Below are positions 19,447 through 24,053 of a stretch of 64,000 nucleotides of DNA, piece by piece. Every line of letters starts with the position of its first letter. Positions within the stretch are counted from its first letter, which is position 1. The stretch is from Prevotella sp. Lineage in GTDB: Bacteria > Bacteroidota > Bacteroidia > Bacteroidales > Bacteroidaceae. The stretch is from the NCBI GenBank assembly GCA_017940545.1, contig JAGAYI010000006.1, positions 62,001 to 126,000 on the forward strand. Reading direction: 5' to 3'. A model generated the notes under the pieces. The model did no database searches and was not told the origin of the DNA. It saw nothing but the letters and a program-made list of their open reading frames with translations. The position numbers and the translations under genes were made by a program.

Positions 19447-20511
19447 ATGAACGAGCGGAAAAGGGAAGAGAAATTGCGTTTCGCAGGCGAGAAGAAACCG
19501 TCGATGCACCGGCGGAGTGACGACCACGACTATCATGGCCGTTGTTTCTATATGGTGACAATGGCGGTTGAGGGACGGTTACCGCTATTGGGATGGCTGG
19601 TGGGGAATGACGACGAGTCTGAAGGTAGCCCTGATGCTCCCCGTGTTGAGCTGTCACCTTTGGGACTGGCTGTGAACAAGGCCTGGTCGGCTATAAGCAG
19701 TATCTATCCGCAGGTGGCGGTTGTAGCCCAGTAGGTGATGCCTGATCATTTCCATGGCATACTCTATTTCCGTGAGGCTACCGACGTGCATCTGGGGCAG
19801 GTTGTCAAGGGCTTCAAGCTGGCGTGCAACAGGGCACTGCGTGGGCTATTGGTTGCGATGGTATCGCAACCTGCAAGGGAAGGACAGGATGTTGAAGGTG
19901 AAGGGCAAGCGGCCCTTCGCTTGTTCGCTGCGAAATCTTCGCAGCCCATGGAAAAGGCCACCTTGTGGGAGCGTGGCTACAACGACCGCATACTCCACAA
20001 CTATAGCACTCTTGACAAATGGAAAGCCTACCTTCGTGATAACCCTCGTCGGCTGGCCATCAAACGTGCACACCCAGACTTCTTCCGCGTTCGCTTTGGG
20101 CTAACCGTCGCAGGACAGACCTACGCTGCCATTGGCAACCGCTTCTTGCTGAATCATCCGCTGAAATTGCAAGTTCAATGCTCCCGTCGTCTGACGGAAG
20201 AGGAGATACAGGAACGGGTGGATTTCTTTCTGGAACAGGCACGTAAAGGTGCTGTTCTGGTGTCACCAGCCATCTCGCCTGGTGAGCAGGCTGTGATGAG
20301 AGCCGCCATAGATGCGCATCTGCCACTCATCTTCCTGACACCGTGGGGCTTCAATACCTTCTCCAAGCCTGGTCACCAGTACTATGAGGCTTGTGCGGCA
20401 GGCCGTTTTCTCATTCTGGCACCTTGGGAACACCAAAATGAACGTGTGCCGCTGACACGTACGATGTGTCTGACACTGAACAGCATGACGAAAGCAATTG
20501 GTGGACTGTAG
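19447..20511 (+). pseudogene. Y1 (IS200/RAYT-type) transposase gene with in-frame TAG
   Basis: A single frame runs from ATG 19447 to the stop at 20511 (354 codons), interrupted by a TAG at 19732-19734. Before the stop the protein ends ...YPQVAVVAQ; directly after it comes VMPDHFHGILYF, which contains the HUH motif (His-Phe-His). The first beta strand (GRCFYMVTMAVEGRLPLL) lies before the stop, so a restart at the GTG 19735 would lack part of the fold. Known relatives read through this position with a sense codon. The C-terminal 150 or so residues (LVSPAISPGEQAVMRAAIDA to NSMTKAI) look like a separate Rossmann/SLOG-type domain. I infer a recently inactivated gene; suppression of the TAG is the alternative. 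Confidence 0.8.
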
Positions 20512-20530
20512 ATCAAATGAAGTTTAATCC

Positions 20531-20563
20531 TAAAAACTGAATGCCTATGGGCTGAGAGAAATA
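20531..20563 (+). repeat. 33-bp inverted-repeat copy A
   Basis: The 33 bp from TAAAAACTGAATGCC to GGGCTGAGAGAAATA recur exactly, inverted, at 23079-23111. After the repeat, copy A continues TAAAAGGACATATA. Copy B has a 15-bp hairpin (around GATGCGTAGCATC) before the same AGGACATATA. Copy A begins 20 bp after the transposase stop codon. Confidence 0.95.
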
Positions 20564-20583
20564 TAAAAGGACATATACAACAA

Positions 20584-20613
20584 TCCCCCGTCAATGTTTG
20601 GAATGACGGGGGA
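20584..20613. terminator. Bidirectional intrinsic terminator
   Basis: TCCCCCGTCA (20584-20593) pairs perfectly with TGACGGGGGA (20604-20613), loop of 10, followed by ATTTCTATTATTT. It lies between the convergent transposase and zinc-ribbon genes. Confidence 0.88.
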
Positions 20614-20649
20614 ATTTCTATTATTTATACAATAGTGATTTGCGTGTAC

Positions 20650-21699
20650 TTAGTATTTATCCTTATAAGGAGTACTTTCGTATCCTTTGCTATTAAGCTT
20701 AGCTACCCATTTGTCAAGCAGTTTCTTTCCTTGCGATTTAAACAGCTTTACATTACCAAAGTATTTTACGAAGATTGGACTAATTGCATAATAGGTCTTA
20801 ATAAACAAACGTCCATACCACGTTTCATCAAGTGTAAAGTCTCTAAATCTACGGAGCGTCCATACTTCAGGGCAATCGTATGAGCCATAAACGGCAGTAG
20901 CAACATAGCAGCCAGAGGTGTCAACTTCGGGATTGGAAAATGAAGAATCATACTTCCTAATCTTATCACCATAGGAATTGATAATATTAATATTACCTTC
21001 TTTGTCTTGTAGATACTTCACGTATTCCTTATGAATGCTTATTCCTGCTTTCCATGCTTCTACAGCTATTTCTGAATAATCATCACCAAAAACTGAACTT
21101 AGGGTATTACCGAATATATACATAATATCAGCAGAAGCGGAGGCATTATTACAATATTCTTGTAAATAGTTTAATTGAATCGAAGCATCAATACCTTTAT
21201 AATGAGATGTCGCCGCATTAAAAAGCATTGACGATATATTAGAGTTACGTACAAGTACTTCATTAAGGGCTTTTTTCTGCTCTTCTGGATCGGAAACATG
21301 ATCTTTAATTAGTTGTACAACAGACTCCAGACAATTCGTTATTGAATTTGCAGCACTCCATATTTCAGCAATTTTGCATCCCATAGCTTTAAAATAGACA
21401 ACATAATAATTTGCCTCCCAACTACTTGGGTCTTTCACAAGTATCATATCATAATACTTGGTTGCATTTTCACTATTGTCAGAGTCCTTAGCTCTACGGG
21501 CAACCTCGTATAGGTTTTTCAATTCATCAGAGGTATCTACTTTAACAGTACCCTTGACATCGACAGTTCCTTCTACCATCATTTTCTTGGCTTCCTCTAC
21601 GGAATATTTCGTTCCGCAAGATTGGCAGACAAATACGCCGCCTTCTTTGATTAGATTAGTGCTTCCGCACATTTCACATTTTAAAGCTTTCATACTCAT
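20650..21699 (-). CDS. Zinc-ribbon protein with C-terminal CFI-box domain
   Basis: The 349-residue product begins with a four-cysteine zinc ribbon (CEMCGSTNLIKEGG, CQSCGTKYSVEEAKK). An acidic helical middle region follows, and then the hallmark GCYVATAVYGSYDCPEVW and TLRRFRDFTLDETWYGR of the CFI-box C-terminal domain (about residues 268-315), followed by a hydrophobic stretch. CFI-box proteins are widespread in bacteria but have no settled function. The gene is AT-rich compared with its surroundings. It lies 33 bp downstream of the SPFH-GYF gene on the same strand, both inside a pair of 33-bp inverted repeats, so I infer a two-gene module, possibly transferred. The second ATG (codon 3) is an alternative start. 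Confidence 0.8.
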   Translation of the reverse strand: MSMKALKCEMCGSTNLIKEGGVFVCQSCGTKYSVEEAKKMMVEGTVDVKGTVKVDTSDELKNLYEVARRAKDSDNSENATKYYDMILVKDPSSWEANYYVVYFKAMGCKIAEIWSAANSITNCLESVVQLIKDHVSDPEEQKKALNEVLVRNSNISSMLFNAATSHYKGIDASIQLNYLQEYCNNASASADIMYIFGNTLSSVFGDDYSEIAVEAWKAGISIHKEYVKYLQDKEGNINIINSYGDKIRKYDSSFSNPEVDTSGCYVATAVYGSYDCPEVWTLRRFRDFTLDETWYGRLFIKTYYAISPIFVKYFGNVKLFKSQGKKLLDKWVAKLNSKGYESTPYKDKY

Positions 21700-21732
21700 T
21701 TATTTTTAGTTATTGAATTTGTCTGATGATAA

Positions 21733-22842
21733 TTACAAGTTCATTGGTGGTGGGACTATGTTATTAAATAATGTAGTCAATTCTGGCACCTCTTTTAGTC
21801 TGACCCAATTTGCCATACCCGCAGTCCACACAGGTGTTTCACCATTAACCTTACCCTGCTGAATAAGTCTTTGTATGCTTGCCACAGTTTGTCCACCTAT
21901 CTGTGCGCCATCCATGTGGATGTAGTATTGCTTATCCATGTTTAAAGGTGGGGGTGTCGGATTAGGATTTGTATTAATCATTTGGGAAGACATCTGAGCC
22001 ATCGCGCTACCGGCCGTAACACCGGCTCCGAGGCCAACTCCCATTCCGACCATTTGCCCTCCAGCACCTTCATTGCTTGCAGCTTTTTCTAACACATCAA
22101 AGCTACGTTCCATCTGATAAACGTCTTTTCCGGTGATATTGAGCCTTGCCATCATTGCCTTTGCTTCCTTAAGCTTGATTACGCTCTCATCATGCTCAGG
22201 CACGTTTACTGACATAATTGAGAACTCTTTTATCTCTATACCGTACTTACCCATTACGTCGTTAAGCTGTGATTCACACTCTTCCGACATGGGGATTAGT
22301 TCAGTGTTAATATCGAGAATGGAAACATTTCTTTCGACAATCTGTTTTGCCAGGAGCGAATTAAGTGCTTGAATCAGTCTTCCTTTAAAGTATTGACTGA
22401 TTTTGTCAGCGGTAAAGACTGACATGTTACCAATCAGCGTTTCTAAGAACAGACGAGGATCTTTTATTCGCAAACCATATTGACCATTAGAACGGACTGG
22501 TACAATTATCTTATATTTTGGGTCTTCAAGTAGAATGGGTTGCGGTGTTCCCCAAGGCATATCCAATTTGCTAATCTGGTTGATAAACCAAACTTCTGCC
22601 TTAAATGGGGAATCTCCGCCAAAAGGTATGTTTATGACCTTATTAAGCAACGGTATATTCTCTGACGATAGAGTATATGTGCCAGAAGTGAAAGCATCCA
22701 GAATCTCGCCTCCTTTTACAAAGAAGGCTGTTTGTGAAGGATAAACTATCAGTTGAGAACCTAGTTTTAGGTCATCAGATGGAAACTTGTAGCAAAACTC
22801 TCCATCTACTATGTCACACTTTATTACATTGATTAGTGCCAT
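21733..22842 (-). CDS. SPFH-domain protein with C-terminal GYF_2 domain
   Basis: The 369-residue product resembles the bacterial family often labelled virion-core-like or YdjL-like. An SPFH/Band-7 domain covers about 25-235 (SQLIVYPSQTAFFVKGGEIL, FGGDSPFKAEVWFINQISKL, YGIEIKEFSIMSVNVPEHDE). A Gly-Ala-Met-rich linker follows (GGQMVGMGVGLGAGVTAGSA), then a C-terminal GYF_2/DUF4339 module (QYYIHMDGAQIGGQTVASIQ, ETPVWTAGMANWVRLKEVPE). SPFH proteins form membrane-associated oligomeric scaffolds; GYF_2 domains bind peptides. The true partner is probably the neighbouring zinc-ribbon CFI-box protein. No signal peptide is present. The function is unknown. Confidence 0.82.
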   Translation of the reverse strand: MALINVIKCDIVDGEFCYKFPSDDLKLGSQLIVYPSQTAFFVKGGEILDAFTSGTYTLSSENIPLLNKVINIPFGGDSPFKAEVWFINQISKLDMPWGTPQPILLEDPKYKIIVPVRSNGQYGLRIKDPRLFLETLIGNMSVFTADKISQYFKGRLIQALNSLLAKQIVERNVSILDINTELIPMSEECESQLNDVMGKYGIEIKEFSIMSVNVPEHDESVIKLKEAKAMMARLNITGKDVYQMERSFDVLEKAASNEGAGGQMVGMGVGLGAGVTAGSAMAQMSSQMINTNPNPTPPPLNMDKQYYIHMDGAQIGGQTVASIQRLIQQGKVNGETPVWTAGMANWVRLKEVPELTTLFNNIVPPPMNL

Positions 22843-22860
22843 ATCTTATTGTTTCTAGTA

Positions 22861-23127
22861 GTTATAAAAATGTACAAAAAGAAAAACGTGAGCAATTTAC
22901 TTCGCTTACGTTTCGGAGGTATTGGGGATAACCTATGTAGCTTAAACGAGTAAAAGCTCACGCCTTCTGGCGTGAACTATCTACTTCAGTTCTTGCTACA
23001 TTCGTCTAATTCCCCAATTATCCGAAACAAGAATCAAAAGCGGACGTCCATCCTATATGTCCTTGATGCTACGCATCGTATTTCTCTCAGCCCATAGGCA
23101 TTCAGTTTTTATGGTTATACAATAAAT
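22861..23127. other. Multi-hairpin structured element
   Basis: No reading frame is convincing here. Hairpin 1: ACGTGAGC (22886-22893) with GCTTACGT (22904-22911). Long interrupted hairpin 2: GTTTCGGA, ATTGGGGA and ATGTAGC (22910-22941) pair in order with GCTACAT, TCCCCAAT and TCCGAAAC (22995-23028). Its tip is hairpin 3, TCACGCC-TTCT-GGCGTGA (22958-22975). A fourth hairpin, GATGC-TAC-GCATC, lies at 23064-23076, followed by the 33-bp repeat copy B. The order of pairing segments is more regular than chance would give. It could be a non-coding RNA, a transposon end or a recombination site. Confidence 0.7.
23079..23111 (-). repeat. 33-bp inverted-repeat copy B
   Basis: Exact reverse complement of 20531-20563. 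It lies 16 bp past the stop codon of the HepT-like gene. With copy A it brackets the SPFH/zinc-ribbon pair and the structured element. Confidence 0.95.
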
Positions 23128-23475
23128 TTATTTCAGTTCTTGAATCAATTGTACTATGATTGGCCGAAGTGCAGGAATGTCGGTGACAATTGTTTCCCAT
23201 AATTGTTCTGGACGAATTTTATAGTAACCATGTACCAGGACATGACGCATCCGTTCAATATCACTCCAATTAACCTCGGAATGTTTTGTACGATATTCCA
23301 ATGTCAGCTTATAGACTGCCTCACCGATGATTTCTACATGTTTTACCAATCCGAAATATACCACAGGGTCCGATTGGGCTTCATCCAATGTGTGATGGTC
23401 CTTGTAGTTAATAAGGACATCCATAGCCTGTAGCATGTGCTCAAGCCGTTCAATATCTCTAACCTCTTCTCTCAT
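23128..23475 (-). CDS. hepT: HEPN-domain toxin (HepT-like, DUF86)
   Basis: The 115-residue all-helical protein carries the HEPN active motif R-x4-H in RMRHVLVHGYY (Arg-His-Val-Leu-Val-His). DUF86/HepT proteins are ribonuclease-type toxins of HEPN-MNT toxin-antitoxin pairs. The nucleotidyltransferase partner is encoded just upstream with a 17-bp overlap, the standard arrangement. In known systems MntA adds AMP to a Tyr near the HEPN motif (the RX4HXY form); here GYY follows the His and supplies the matching tyrosine. The pair sits just outside the 33-bp repeat, in the accessory region. Confidence 0.85.
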   Translation of the reverse strand: MREEVRDIERLEHMLQAMDVLINYKDHHTLDEAQSDPVVYFGLVKHVEIIGEAVYKLTLEYRTKHSEVNWSDIERMRHVLVHGYYKIRPEQLWETIVTDIPALRPIIVQLIQELK

Positions 23476-23758
23476 AAATCAGTTGTTTATCACGGTTAGC
23501 ACTTTCTACGGCAAAGGGCATCAGACAGCCTTCTTCAATCAAATCAACACGACGACCGGTGCTTTTCTCCAGTTCGCCCATCATGTGGGATATTGCCAGA
23601 AGAGAAATATGAGCATCTTTGTCATACTCCACCAGAATATCCACATCGCTGTCCTCCGTCTGCTCACCACGAGCAAAGGAACCAAACAGCCATGCTCTCA
23701 GGACGGGTTGCGTCTTGAAATACTCGGCTATTTGCTGTGTCAACATCTGCGTACTCAT
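23459..23758 (-). CDS. mntA: MNT nucleotidyltransferase antitoxin (MntA-like)
   Basis: The 99-residue protein is a minimal nucleotidyltransferase. Its hallmark is GSFARGEQTEDSDVDILVEY (about 26-45), which gives GSx10DxD with the two metal-binding Asp residues. MntA enzymes neutralise HepT by AMPylation. The coding regions overlap by 17 bp, so translation is likely coupled. The start ATG is complementary to 23756-23758. The family usually has this length. Standing alone, the domain could belong to other nucleotidyltransferases, but the HEPN neighbour settles it. Confidence 0.87.
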   Translation of the reverse strand: MSTQMLTQQIAEYFKTQPVLRAWLFGSFARGEQTEDSDVDILVEYDKDAHISLLAISHMMGELEKSTGRRVDLIEEGCLMPFAVESANRDKQLIYERRG

Positions 23759-23862
23759 AGGCGTAGCAATTAGTTTCTGCAGGCAAAGATAAAAAGAATA
23801 ATTGATATTTGCAAGAAACGAGGATATTTTTTGTTTCCGTGTGCCAGTTCACTGAAAGCAAA

Positions 23863-23968
23863 ACGGCACCTCTCTGACCGAAAGGTGCCGAGTTGAAGGT
23901 ACGAAGGTGCCGAGTTTGAGGGAGATAGGTGCCGTCTTTCAGGGAGAAAGGTGCCGTTTCCTGAAAGT
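23863..23968. repeat. Tandem array with AGGTGCCG core, about 21-23 bp period
   Basis: Four copies of (A)AGGTGCCG occur at a spacing of about 21-23 bp, preceded by an inverted GGCACCT. Between the cores come GAGGGAGATA/CAGGGAGAAA-like words. No gene is present in 23759-24213. Confidence 0.85.
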
Positions 23969-23973
23969 TCATC

Positions 23974-24053
23974 GGGCGATGTAATCAATTACACCGCCCG
24001 ATGTAATTAATTATACCGCCCGATGCATTTAAGTGAACCGCCCGCTGTAATAC
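23974..24053. repeat. Tandem array of 22-23-bp units with ACCGCCCG core
   Basis: Units such as ACACCGCCCGATGTAATTAA are repeated about 3.5 times. The left end is an inverted half (GGGCGATGTAAT, then CA, then ATTACACCGCCC). The core GGGCGGTGTAA matches one unit at 12868-12878, so the two loci belong to one family. Confidence 0.85.

Follow-up and report, generated by a model that had tools for sequence, protein, structure and literature searches.

We analysed a 64,000-nucleotide (nt) stretch of DNA from Prevotella sp. (assembly GCA_017940545.1, contig JAGAYI010000006.1, positions 62,001 to 126,000 of the forward strand; hereafter the window, to which all coordinates refer), in which an exact inverted repeat of 33 bp brackets two genes and a multi-hairpin element. 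Here we examine this element as part of a putative leader RNA, of which one copy of the repeat would form the 5' head. The parts of the locus are listed below in the order in which the unit on the minus strand would be read, from a promoter-like box through a toxin-antitoxin gene pair (MNT and HEPN), the leader and two further genes (SPFH-GYF and CFI-box) to a GC-rich hairpin, followed by the features on the plus strand; ORF stands for open reading frame.

23784-23791, minus strand: promoter-like TATCTTTG before the MNT gene, with a TTG 20 nt ahead of it (sequence)
23459-23758, minus strand: MNT nucleotidyltransferase, first gene of the unit (domain match)
23128-23475, minus strand: HEPN (HepT-like) gene, upstream neighbour of the leader (domain match)
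23079-23120, minus strand: copy B, putative head of the leader RNA, holding the exact 33 bp at 23079-23111 (the same class of head stands before other cores)
23087-23101, minus strand: minimal ORF of copy B, ATG CCT ATG GGC TGA (shortest reading ATG GGC TGA, 23087-23095)
23065-23078, minus strand: optional hairpin CGATGCGTAGCATC (GATGC..GCATC, 8 of 196 leaders)
22879-23033, minus strand: structured leader core, 155 nt (173.1 bits to the covariance model; covariation)
22971-22977, minus strand: strand a (GTTCACG), partner of b in helix P4 (sequence, pairing comparison)
22956-22962, minus strand: strand b (CGTGAGC), which fits a or d (sequence, pairing comparison)
22904-22910, minus strand: strand c (CGTAAGC), 5' arm of the terminator-like hairpin P5 (sequence, pairing comparison)
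22887-22893, minus strand: strand d (GCTCACG), which fits c (P5) or b (sequence, pairing comparison)
22879-22886, minus strand: U tract 3' of P5 (in each of 100 leaders, six or more of 10 nt are U)
21733-22842, minus strand: SPFH (Band_7_1)-GYF_2 gene, first behind the leader (ORF and domain matches)
20650-21699, minus strand: zinc-ribbon/CFI-box-CTERM gene (zinc-ribbon match below the Pfam cut-off)
20583-20612, no strand assigned: GC-rich hairpin between convergent 3' ends, possible terminator (sequence and fold)
20522-20563, plus strand: copy A, orphan head without a core (repeat search, head survey)
20541-20555, plus strand: minimal ORF of copy A, ATG CCT ATG GGC TGA (sequence)
19447-20511, plus strand: RAYT-like transposase frame with an in-frame TAG at 19732, a neighbour outside the unit (second piece resembles REP_Tyr_transpos, below the cut-off)

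A repeat search of the window recovered the two arms as inverted stretches of 42 nt that are 93% complementary, and we estimate the chance of an exact inverted 33-mer in 64 kb of random sequence at less than 1e-9. What a sequence-only reading had described at this place was borne out: the 33 bp stand exactly inverted at 20531-20563 and 23079-23111, only the SPFH-GYF gene, the zinc-ribbon CFI-box gene and the hairpin element lie between them, a transposase gene ends just before copy A (at 20511, 19 bases ahead of the 33-bp copy), a toxin-antitoxin pair follows the island (HEPN/MNT starts at 23128, 16 bases past the 33-bp copy B), and a hairpin adjoins copy B that copy A lacks. The island is indeed AT-rich, with a GC content of 0.385 over 20531-23111 against 0.523 for the whole window, and the low-GC tract extends further, past copy B and through the HEPN gene. 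The same reading had suggested that the repeat might be a mobile unit like a repetitive extragenic palindrome, and that many solitary copies across the genome would speak against a cassette. When 31 of the 33 bp were sought with at most three mismatches in the source genome (2.2 Mb in 65 contigs, 71% complete), only two places were found, both of them the window copies, and the proposal of a palindrome-like unit was not supported.

The repeat is better understood from the hairpin element beside copy B. As a single strand, this element folds far better than its shuffles (z -4.64, DNA parameters). On the coding strand of the SPFH gene, the head comes first (in copy B it holds the 33-bp repeat) and is succeeded by AAGGACATA, a small hairpin, the 155-nt core, the U tract and the start codon; from this order we take copy B to be the 5' head of the leader that precedes the SPFH gene. 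The hairpin of copy B corresponds to an optional helix of the leader family, found at the same place in other leaders. A blastn search with 22860-23130 revealed two more copies in the source genome (184 nt at 85% and 89 nt at 73%) and matches in 14 of 60 genomes, its own included, all of the same genus; the copies precede different genes.

A covariance model built from 22 cores (R1; 155 positions, 36 pairs) extended the family well beyond the genus. Counting the source genome each time, it matched 206 of 299 genomes of the genus (E<=1e-3), 159 of 301 of the family (E<=1e-5; 21 of 30 genera), 88 of 295 of the order (63 of 184 genera) and 15 of 198 of the phylum, with copy numbers that are minima, since 10-15 candidates per genome were scored in the large searches. 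Hosts among the matches listed include Prevotella ruminicola KHT3, Prevotella disiens JCM 6334 and Hoylesella buccalis ATCC 35310 (exact 22-nt pattern), and 37 weaker matches examined by eye resemble divergent members. In 102 aligned cores, 98.9% of cells are paired, both partners have changed in 22 of the 36 pairs, and covariation scores 0.502 where shuffled alignments score 0.175; this alignment was fitted to R1 and hence leans towards the model. Before any model was made, RNAalifold on a MAFFT alignment of the 22 cores had already found changes on both sides in 21 of 36 pairs. Invariant positions of the core also lie outside the helices. Taken together, these comparisons make it almost certain, as far as sequence can tell, that the element belongs to a family of leader RNAs, apparently one with a regulatory role and a wide distribution in the Bacteroidales, which are among the commonest gut and rumen bacteria. 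Conserved GG and ACC (GGT...ATACC) were seen by eye to flank the 3' arm of helix P2 and could close a small alternative hairpin. One leader copy (L281) lies some 500 nt downstream of the 5S rRNA gene that closes an rRNA operon. A pairing of the 5' box (AACCCT) with the core was weighed by eye and dropped, and integron attC was considered and set aside, likewise by eye only. As regards a phage or plasmid origin, blastn gave no match in plasmid or phage collections, and the 22-nt leader pattern occurs in one viral contig.

The head carries a minimal ORF, an ATG followed mostly by one or two codons and a stop, about 50 nt ahead of the core; both heads of the window contain ATG GGC TGA. To identify this start in a manner blind to what follows, one ATG per leader was picked from the 16 bases before it, and an in-frame stop was then present within three codons in 181 of 188 cases. 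Among the 145 distinct words that follow, a stop within three codons occurs in frame 0 for 138, compared with 25 and 40 in the other frames. Similarly, in 139 of 153 non-redundant leaders the expected place holds an ATG that is separated from a stop by no more than two codons, compared with a mean of 55.2 and a maximum of 69 in shuffles and 21 in an upstream control stretch. The 55 different mini-ORFs compared use all three stop codons and contain no conserved peptide, no codon kept beyond ATG and stop, and no conserved regulatory codons or arrest peptide. The conserved in-frame start and stop thus characterize the main leader group and are less clear in many of the weaker matches. A different arrangement was noted by eye in six weaker matches without a clear upstream mini-ORF, of which L306 has a possible one. 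In L302, L305, L306 and L307, an ATG, three codons and a stop run across the beginning of the core, and in L292 and L300 this ATG opens a longer frame; the arrangement may be a second form of the minimal ORF.

Within the core, the consensus strands a (GTTCACG), b (CGTGGGC; CGUGGGC as RNA), c (CGTAGAC) and d (GTCCACG) allow two arrangements. Strands a and b form helix P4, while c and d form the terminator-like hairpin P5; b is also complementary to d. Since b fits either a or the terminator strand d, P4 together with P5 and the b:d helix are mutually exclusive, and because b lies within helices P1-P3 and d outside them, b:d with P1-P3 intact would be a pseudoknot. Sequence variation is consistent with the alternative pairing: b and d are paired in 99.9% of 707 cells and are perfect complements in the window, and their covariation score is 0.157 against 0.133 +/- 0.007 in shuffles, none of 500 of which scored as high, the kinship of the rows being ignored. 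Where b ends in GGAC, d has GTCC in 12 of 12 rows, though this is the usual form of d and the relatedness of the rows is again ignored; where b ends in GAGC, all 3 rows have GCTC in d. In a single row, b and d have changed jointly and a:b is broken. The commonest pair at two a:b positions is U.G (67 and 96 of 101), as would be expected if b serves two partners. Median energies are -19.6 kcal/mol for P4, -7.3 for P5 and -20.0 for the extended b:d helix. Two features of an attenuator are therefore present, a U-tracted terminator-like hairpin upstream of a gene and a mutually exclusive alternative pairing with moderate support from sequence variation, and the leader is probably an attenuator switch.

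The genes around the leaders also point to control in cis. A same-strand ORF starts behind 97 of 100 cores, at a median distance of 46 nt and within 80 nt in 86 of the 97, and P5 usually lies 30-80 nt before a start codon. BspA-type LRR_5 (Pfam) is found in 38 of the 97 downstream ORFs, compared with 1 of 73 control ORFs from the same stretches, and many of the other downstream genes begin, by our own inspection, like secreted proteins or lipoproteins. Both this narrow distance and the LRR_5 enrichment argue against an independent small RNA with its 3' end at P5 that would work in trans and precede a gene only incidentally. Such an RNA would account for the U tract at the end of all 100 leaders examined and for a promoter-like box of its own: TAnnTTTG, the Bacteroidetes-type promoter box, occurs in the stretch from -135 to -60 in 84 of 196 leaders, whereas a control stretch has it in 12 of 193. 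Yet the remaining 112 leaders lack the box in the stretch tested, and 73 of 100 follow a same-strand ORF, of at least 60 codons, that ends 40-260 nt before the core. We regard a small RNA of this kind as improbable. Among the 73 upstream ORFs, toxin-antitoxin families are frequent (HepT-like 11, HEPN 5, PIN 4, PIN_3 3, DUF2442 5, and YafQ, YoeB and HicB 1 each, where one member may match several families); of the 25 families listed out of 70 for the control ORFs, none is one of these, and nucleotidyltransferase domains reach 3. The genes upstream of the leaders are thus often toxin-antitoxin genes, as is the MNT-HEPN pair of the window.

On balance, we lean towards the view that the 33-bp repeat forms the 5' head of a leader RNA acting in cis, which regulates its downstream genes through transcription attenuation. 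A ribosome would start and stop on the minimal ORF, or stay there when translation is disturbed, and its presence would bias the fold that forms as RNA polymerase passes, such that the choice of fold would decide whether transcription enters the downstream gene. In the window, expression of the SPFH-GYF and CFI-box genes would come under such a switch inside the MNT-HEPN operon. Translation may be the signal that the leader senses, a proposal that we make tentatively. It is tempting to go further and hypothesize an order-wide RNA switch whose sensor is a bare start-stop event within one to three codons, the dwell time of the ribosome (initiation block, release, recycling) setting termination at an attenuator of nested hairpins; in this strong form the idea is speculative and, as it stands, rather unlikely. 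If it were true, leaders behind toxin-antitoxin genes would link the translation stress that a toxin causes with BspA-like surface proteins and genes of membrane stress.

Several observations weigh against control by attenuation through the minimal ORF. P5 is weak, keeps an A.C mismatch and is absent from the output of the consensus terminator scan, and the U tract also follows b:d, so that either fold might be the 'off' state. On its own, b:d has two double-change pairs comprising 4 cells, tested against shuffles that ignore relatedness, and its support comes in part from one-sided and wobble changes; none of the 7 pairs of a:b shows a double change, and its covariation score is equalled or exceeded in 19 of 500 shuffles. 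No ATG lies in range in 7 of 195 leaders, and 7 of the 188 picks have no near stop. Of 12 extra leaders, L280 from the family of the source genome and 11 from elsewhere in the order, 7 have a mini-ORF and 5 lack a clear one, and among 25 mostly weaker matches from the genus and family it is clear by eye in 6 and perhaps 2 more. Finally, the downstream genes have no single common pathway.

Some of these points would suit a riboswitch or a protein-binding leader, in which a metabolite or protein would bind to the core, termination would depend on the two folds described above, and the minimal ORF would merely protect the 5' end or park a ribosome. A compact, highly structured core with invariant positions outside its helices is what such a leader would be expected to have, the U tract is present in all 100 leaders examined, and some members of the wider family have no minimal ORF. 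However, the mixture of downstream genes, scattered apart from the LRR_5 group, suggests no common metabolite, and a binding core leaves unexplained why the closeness of start and stop is the one property of the ORF that is conserved. We therefore consider this alternative possible, if less than probable.

For the attenuator, copy A needs a separate account. It has no core behind it and is followed by the GC-rich hairpin, and over 54-66 bases it is 78-86% identical to the head of L049 and those of four other leaders. A core follows 62 of 71 heads of this sequence class, a proportion biased by the use of overlapping loci gathered by core; the other 9 are copy A in overlapping loci, L049, L155 and L055, the last a leader missed by the search pattern. 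Besides copy A, the few orphan heads in this core-gathered sample are L049 and L155, which stand behind other genes, and in L155 a GC-rich hairpin likewise comes next. Possibly the head is a module in its own right. Copy A would be a second head without its former core, either a remnant or a duplicate in inverted orientation, and the two heads together would form the inverted repeat.

The sequence-only reading had proposed a transferred cassette, which would be a non-autonomous transposon or an invertible segment bounded by the 33-bp repeats. One part of this proposal stands: the enclosed genes look accessory. Homologues of SPFH-GYF are patchy (16 of 60 genomes, its own included, some by the GYF part alone) and distant (the best, from another family, at 52%), and the SPFH-GYF/CFI-box pair is therefore probably an accessory gain. 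An exact inverted repeat, low-GC accessory genes and a broken RAYT-like gene alongside would all fit a cassette, and the segment might in principle be inverted if its two heads recombined. The part that found no support is the repeat as a boundary mark, for it is the head of a leader RNA that precedes other genes too, and a second, inverted head was found in the window's own locus only among the leader loci, mostly examined with 1.5-kb flanks. The scarcity of the repeat in the genome argues in the same direction. Moreover, in 29 of 30 RAYT loci no head lies behind the gene, the exception being the window's own, so that the transposase neighbour looks incidental; at L345, a leader stands about 1 kb before a RAYT-like match. 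No conserved flanks are available to show an empty site, and none was found via the TrmO or TPR flanks in 36 genomes, where syntenic flanks are scarce. TrmO has a match in 20 of these genomes, its own included, TrmO-AGCS adjacency occurs in 2 of 19 relatives' loci and a TPR gene near TrmO in none of them (1.5-kb flanks), and TPR homologues are found in 5 of 36 genomes, its own included, the others at 36-39% identity. We regard a cassette bounded by the repeat as improbable. The source genome contains four further RAYT-like matches (E<=1e-20), and the three listed have frames of 343-369 aa with no inner stops.

Regarding the remaining features of the window, the transcription unit probably starts at the promoter-like TATCTTTG ahead of the MNT gene, which resembles a Bacteroidetes-type -7 box. 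A sigma-70 promoter scan gave 9 sites against 11.7 in shuffles. The consensus terminator scan gave 6 sites against 2.7 in shuffles; it listed the copy B hairpin, read on the opposite strand, and its output lacks the 20583-20612 hairpin as well as P5. PADLOC returned no match for the SPFH, CFI-box or HEPN genes, and the MNT gene resembles PADLOC candidate models, the best being PDC-S09 at 5.4e-19. Short repeats made up of GGTGCCG units and CCGCCCGATG units were seen by eye at 23862-24048, between the MNT gene and TrmO.

These findings bear on the poorly known post-transcriptional control of Prevotella, for which the leader would offer a direct handle. Many genes for BspA-like leucine-rich-repeat proteins would fall under one kind of RNA control, and the sensor would be reduced to one start and one stop codon. 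The leader appears to be undescribed so far, as judged from Rfam 15 and the open-access literature. No Rfam 15 family matches it in the window between 19000 and 25000 (E<=5), in 13 leader loci (E<=1) or in 20 loci of mostly weaker matches (E<=1). That release presumably includes RF01692-RF01694. These numbers appear in the table of a paper reporting four candidate structured RNAs of Bacteroidales (Bacteroidales-1, Bacteroides-1, Bacteroides-2 and Bacteroid-trp), of which Bacteroides-2 has no Rfam number (PMC2864571). The Rfam comparison would accordingly cover three of the four candidates; Bacteroides-2 was reported from one sequenced organism (PMC2864571). The transcriptome of B. thetaiotaomicron contains short ORFs in long 5' leaders, reminiscent of attenuation leaders, and passages of that paper describe no element like the present one (PMC7366714). 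A term search found neither Bacteroides nor Prevotella in the main text of a 2024 survey of non-coding RNAs in 50 genomes (PMC11109978). In the open-access literature, to the exclusion of subscription papers and supplements, we found no description of this leader.

Known attenuators share some of its features. The tetQ leader of the Bacteroides element CTnDOT reportedly encodes a three-codon leader peptide. It is a tetracycline-induced leader of Bacteroidales, listed as translation control of one gene, and resembles the present leader as an attenuator-type leader of the same order (PMC5418344). The ilvB motif, an amino-acid attenuator, likewise combines an upstream ORF (uORF) with a terminator and antiterminator, but its uORF is enriched in regulatory codons, while the present mini-ORF keeps no codon beyond ATG and stop (PMC11109978). 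A further parallel is toiL, a uORF before topAI-yjhQ in E. coli, which governs the transcript of a toxin-antitoxin system and reacts to translation inhibitors of several classes; both have a short upstream ORF, alternative RNA folds and a toxin-antitoxin link (PMC12121999). toiL acts by occlusion of a ribosome site and Rho in one operon (PMC12121999), whereas the present leader has a terminator-like hairpin of the intrinsic type, occurs in many copies across an order, and has an ORF of mostly one or two codons after the ATG with no conserved peptide. Despite these differences, the sensing of translation stress by the toiL uORF provides a precedent for the idea that a ribosome on a minimal ORF could bias the fold of the RNA behind it.

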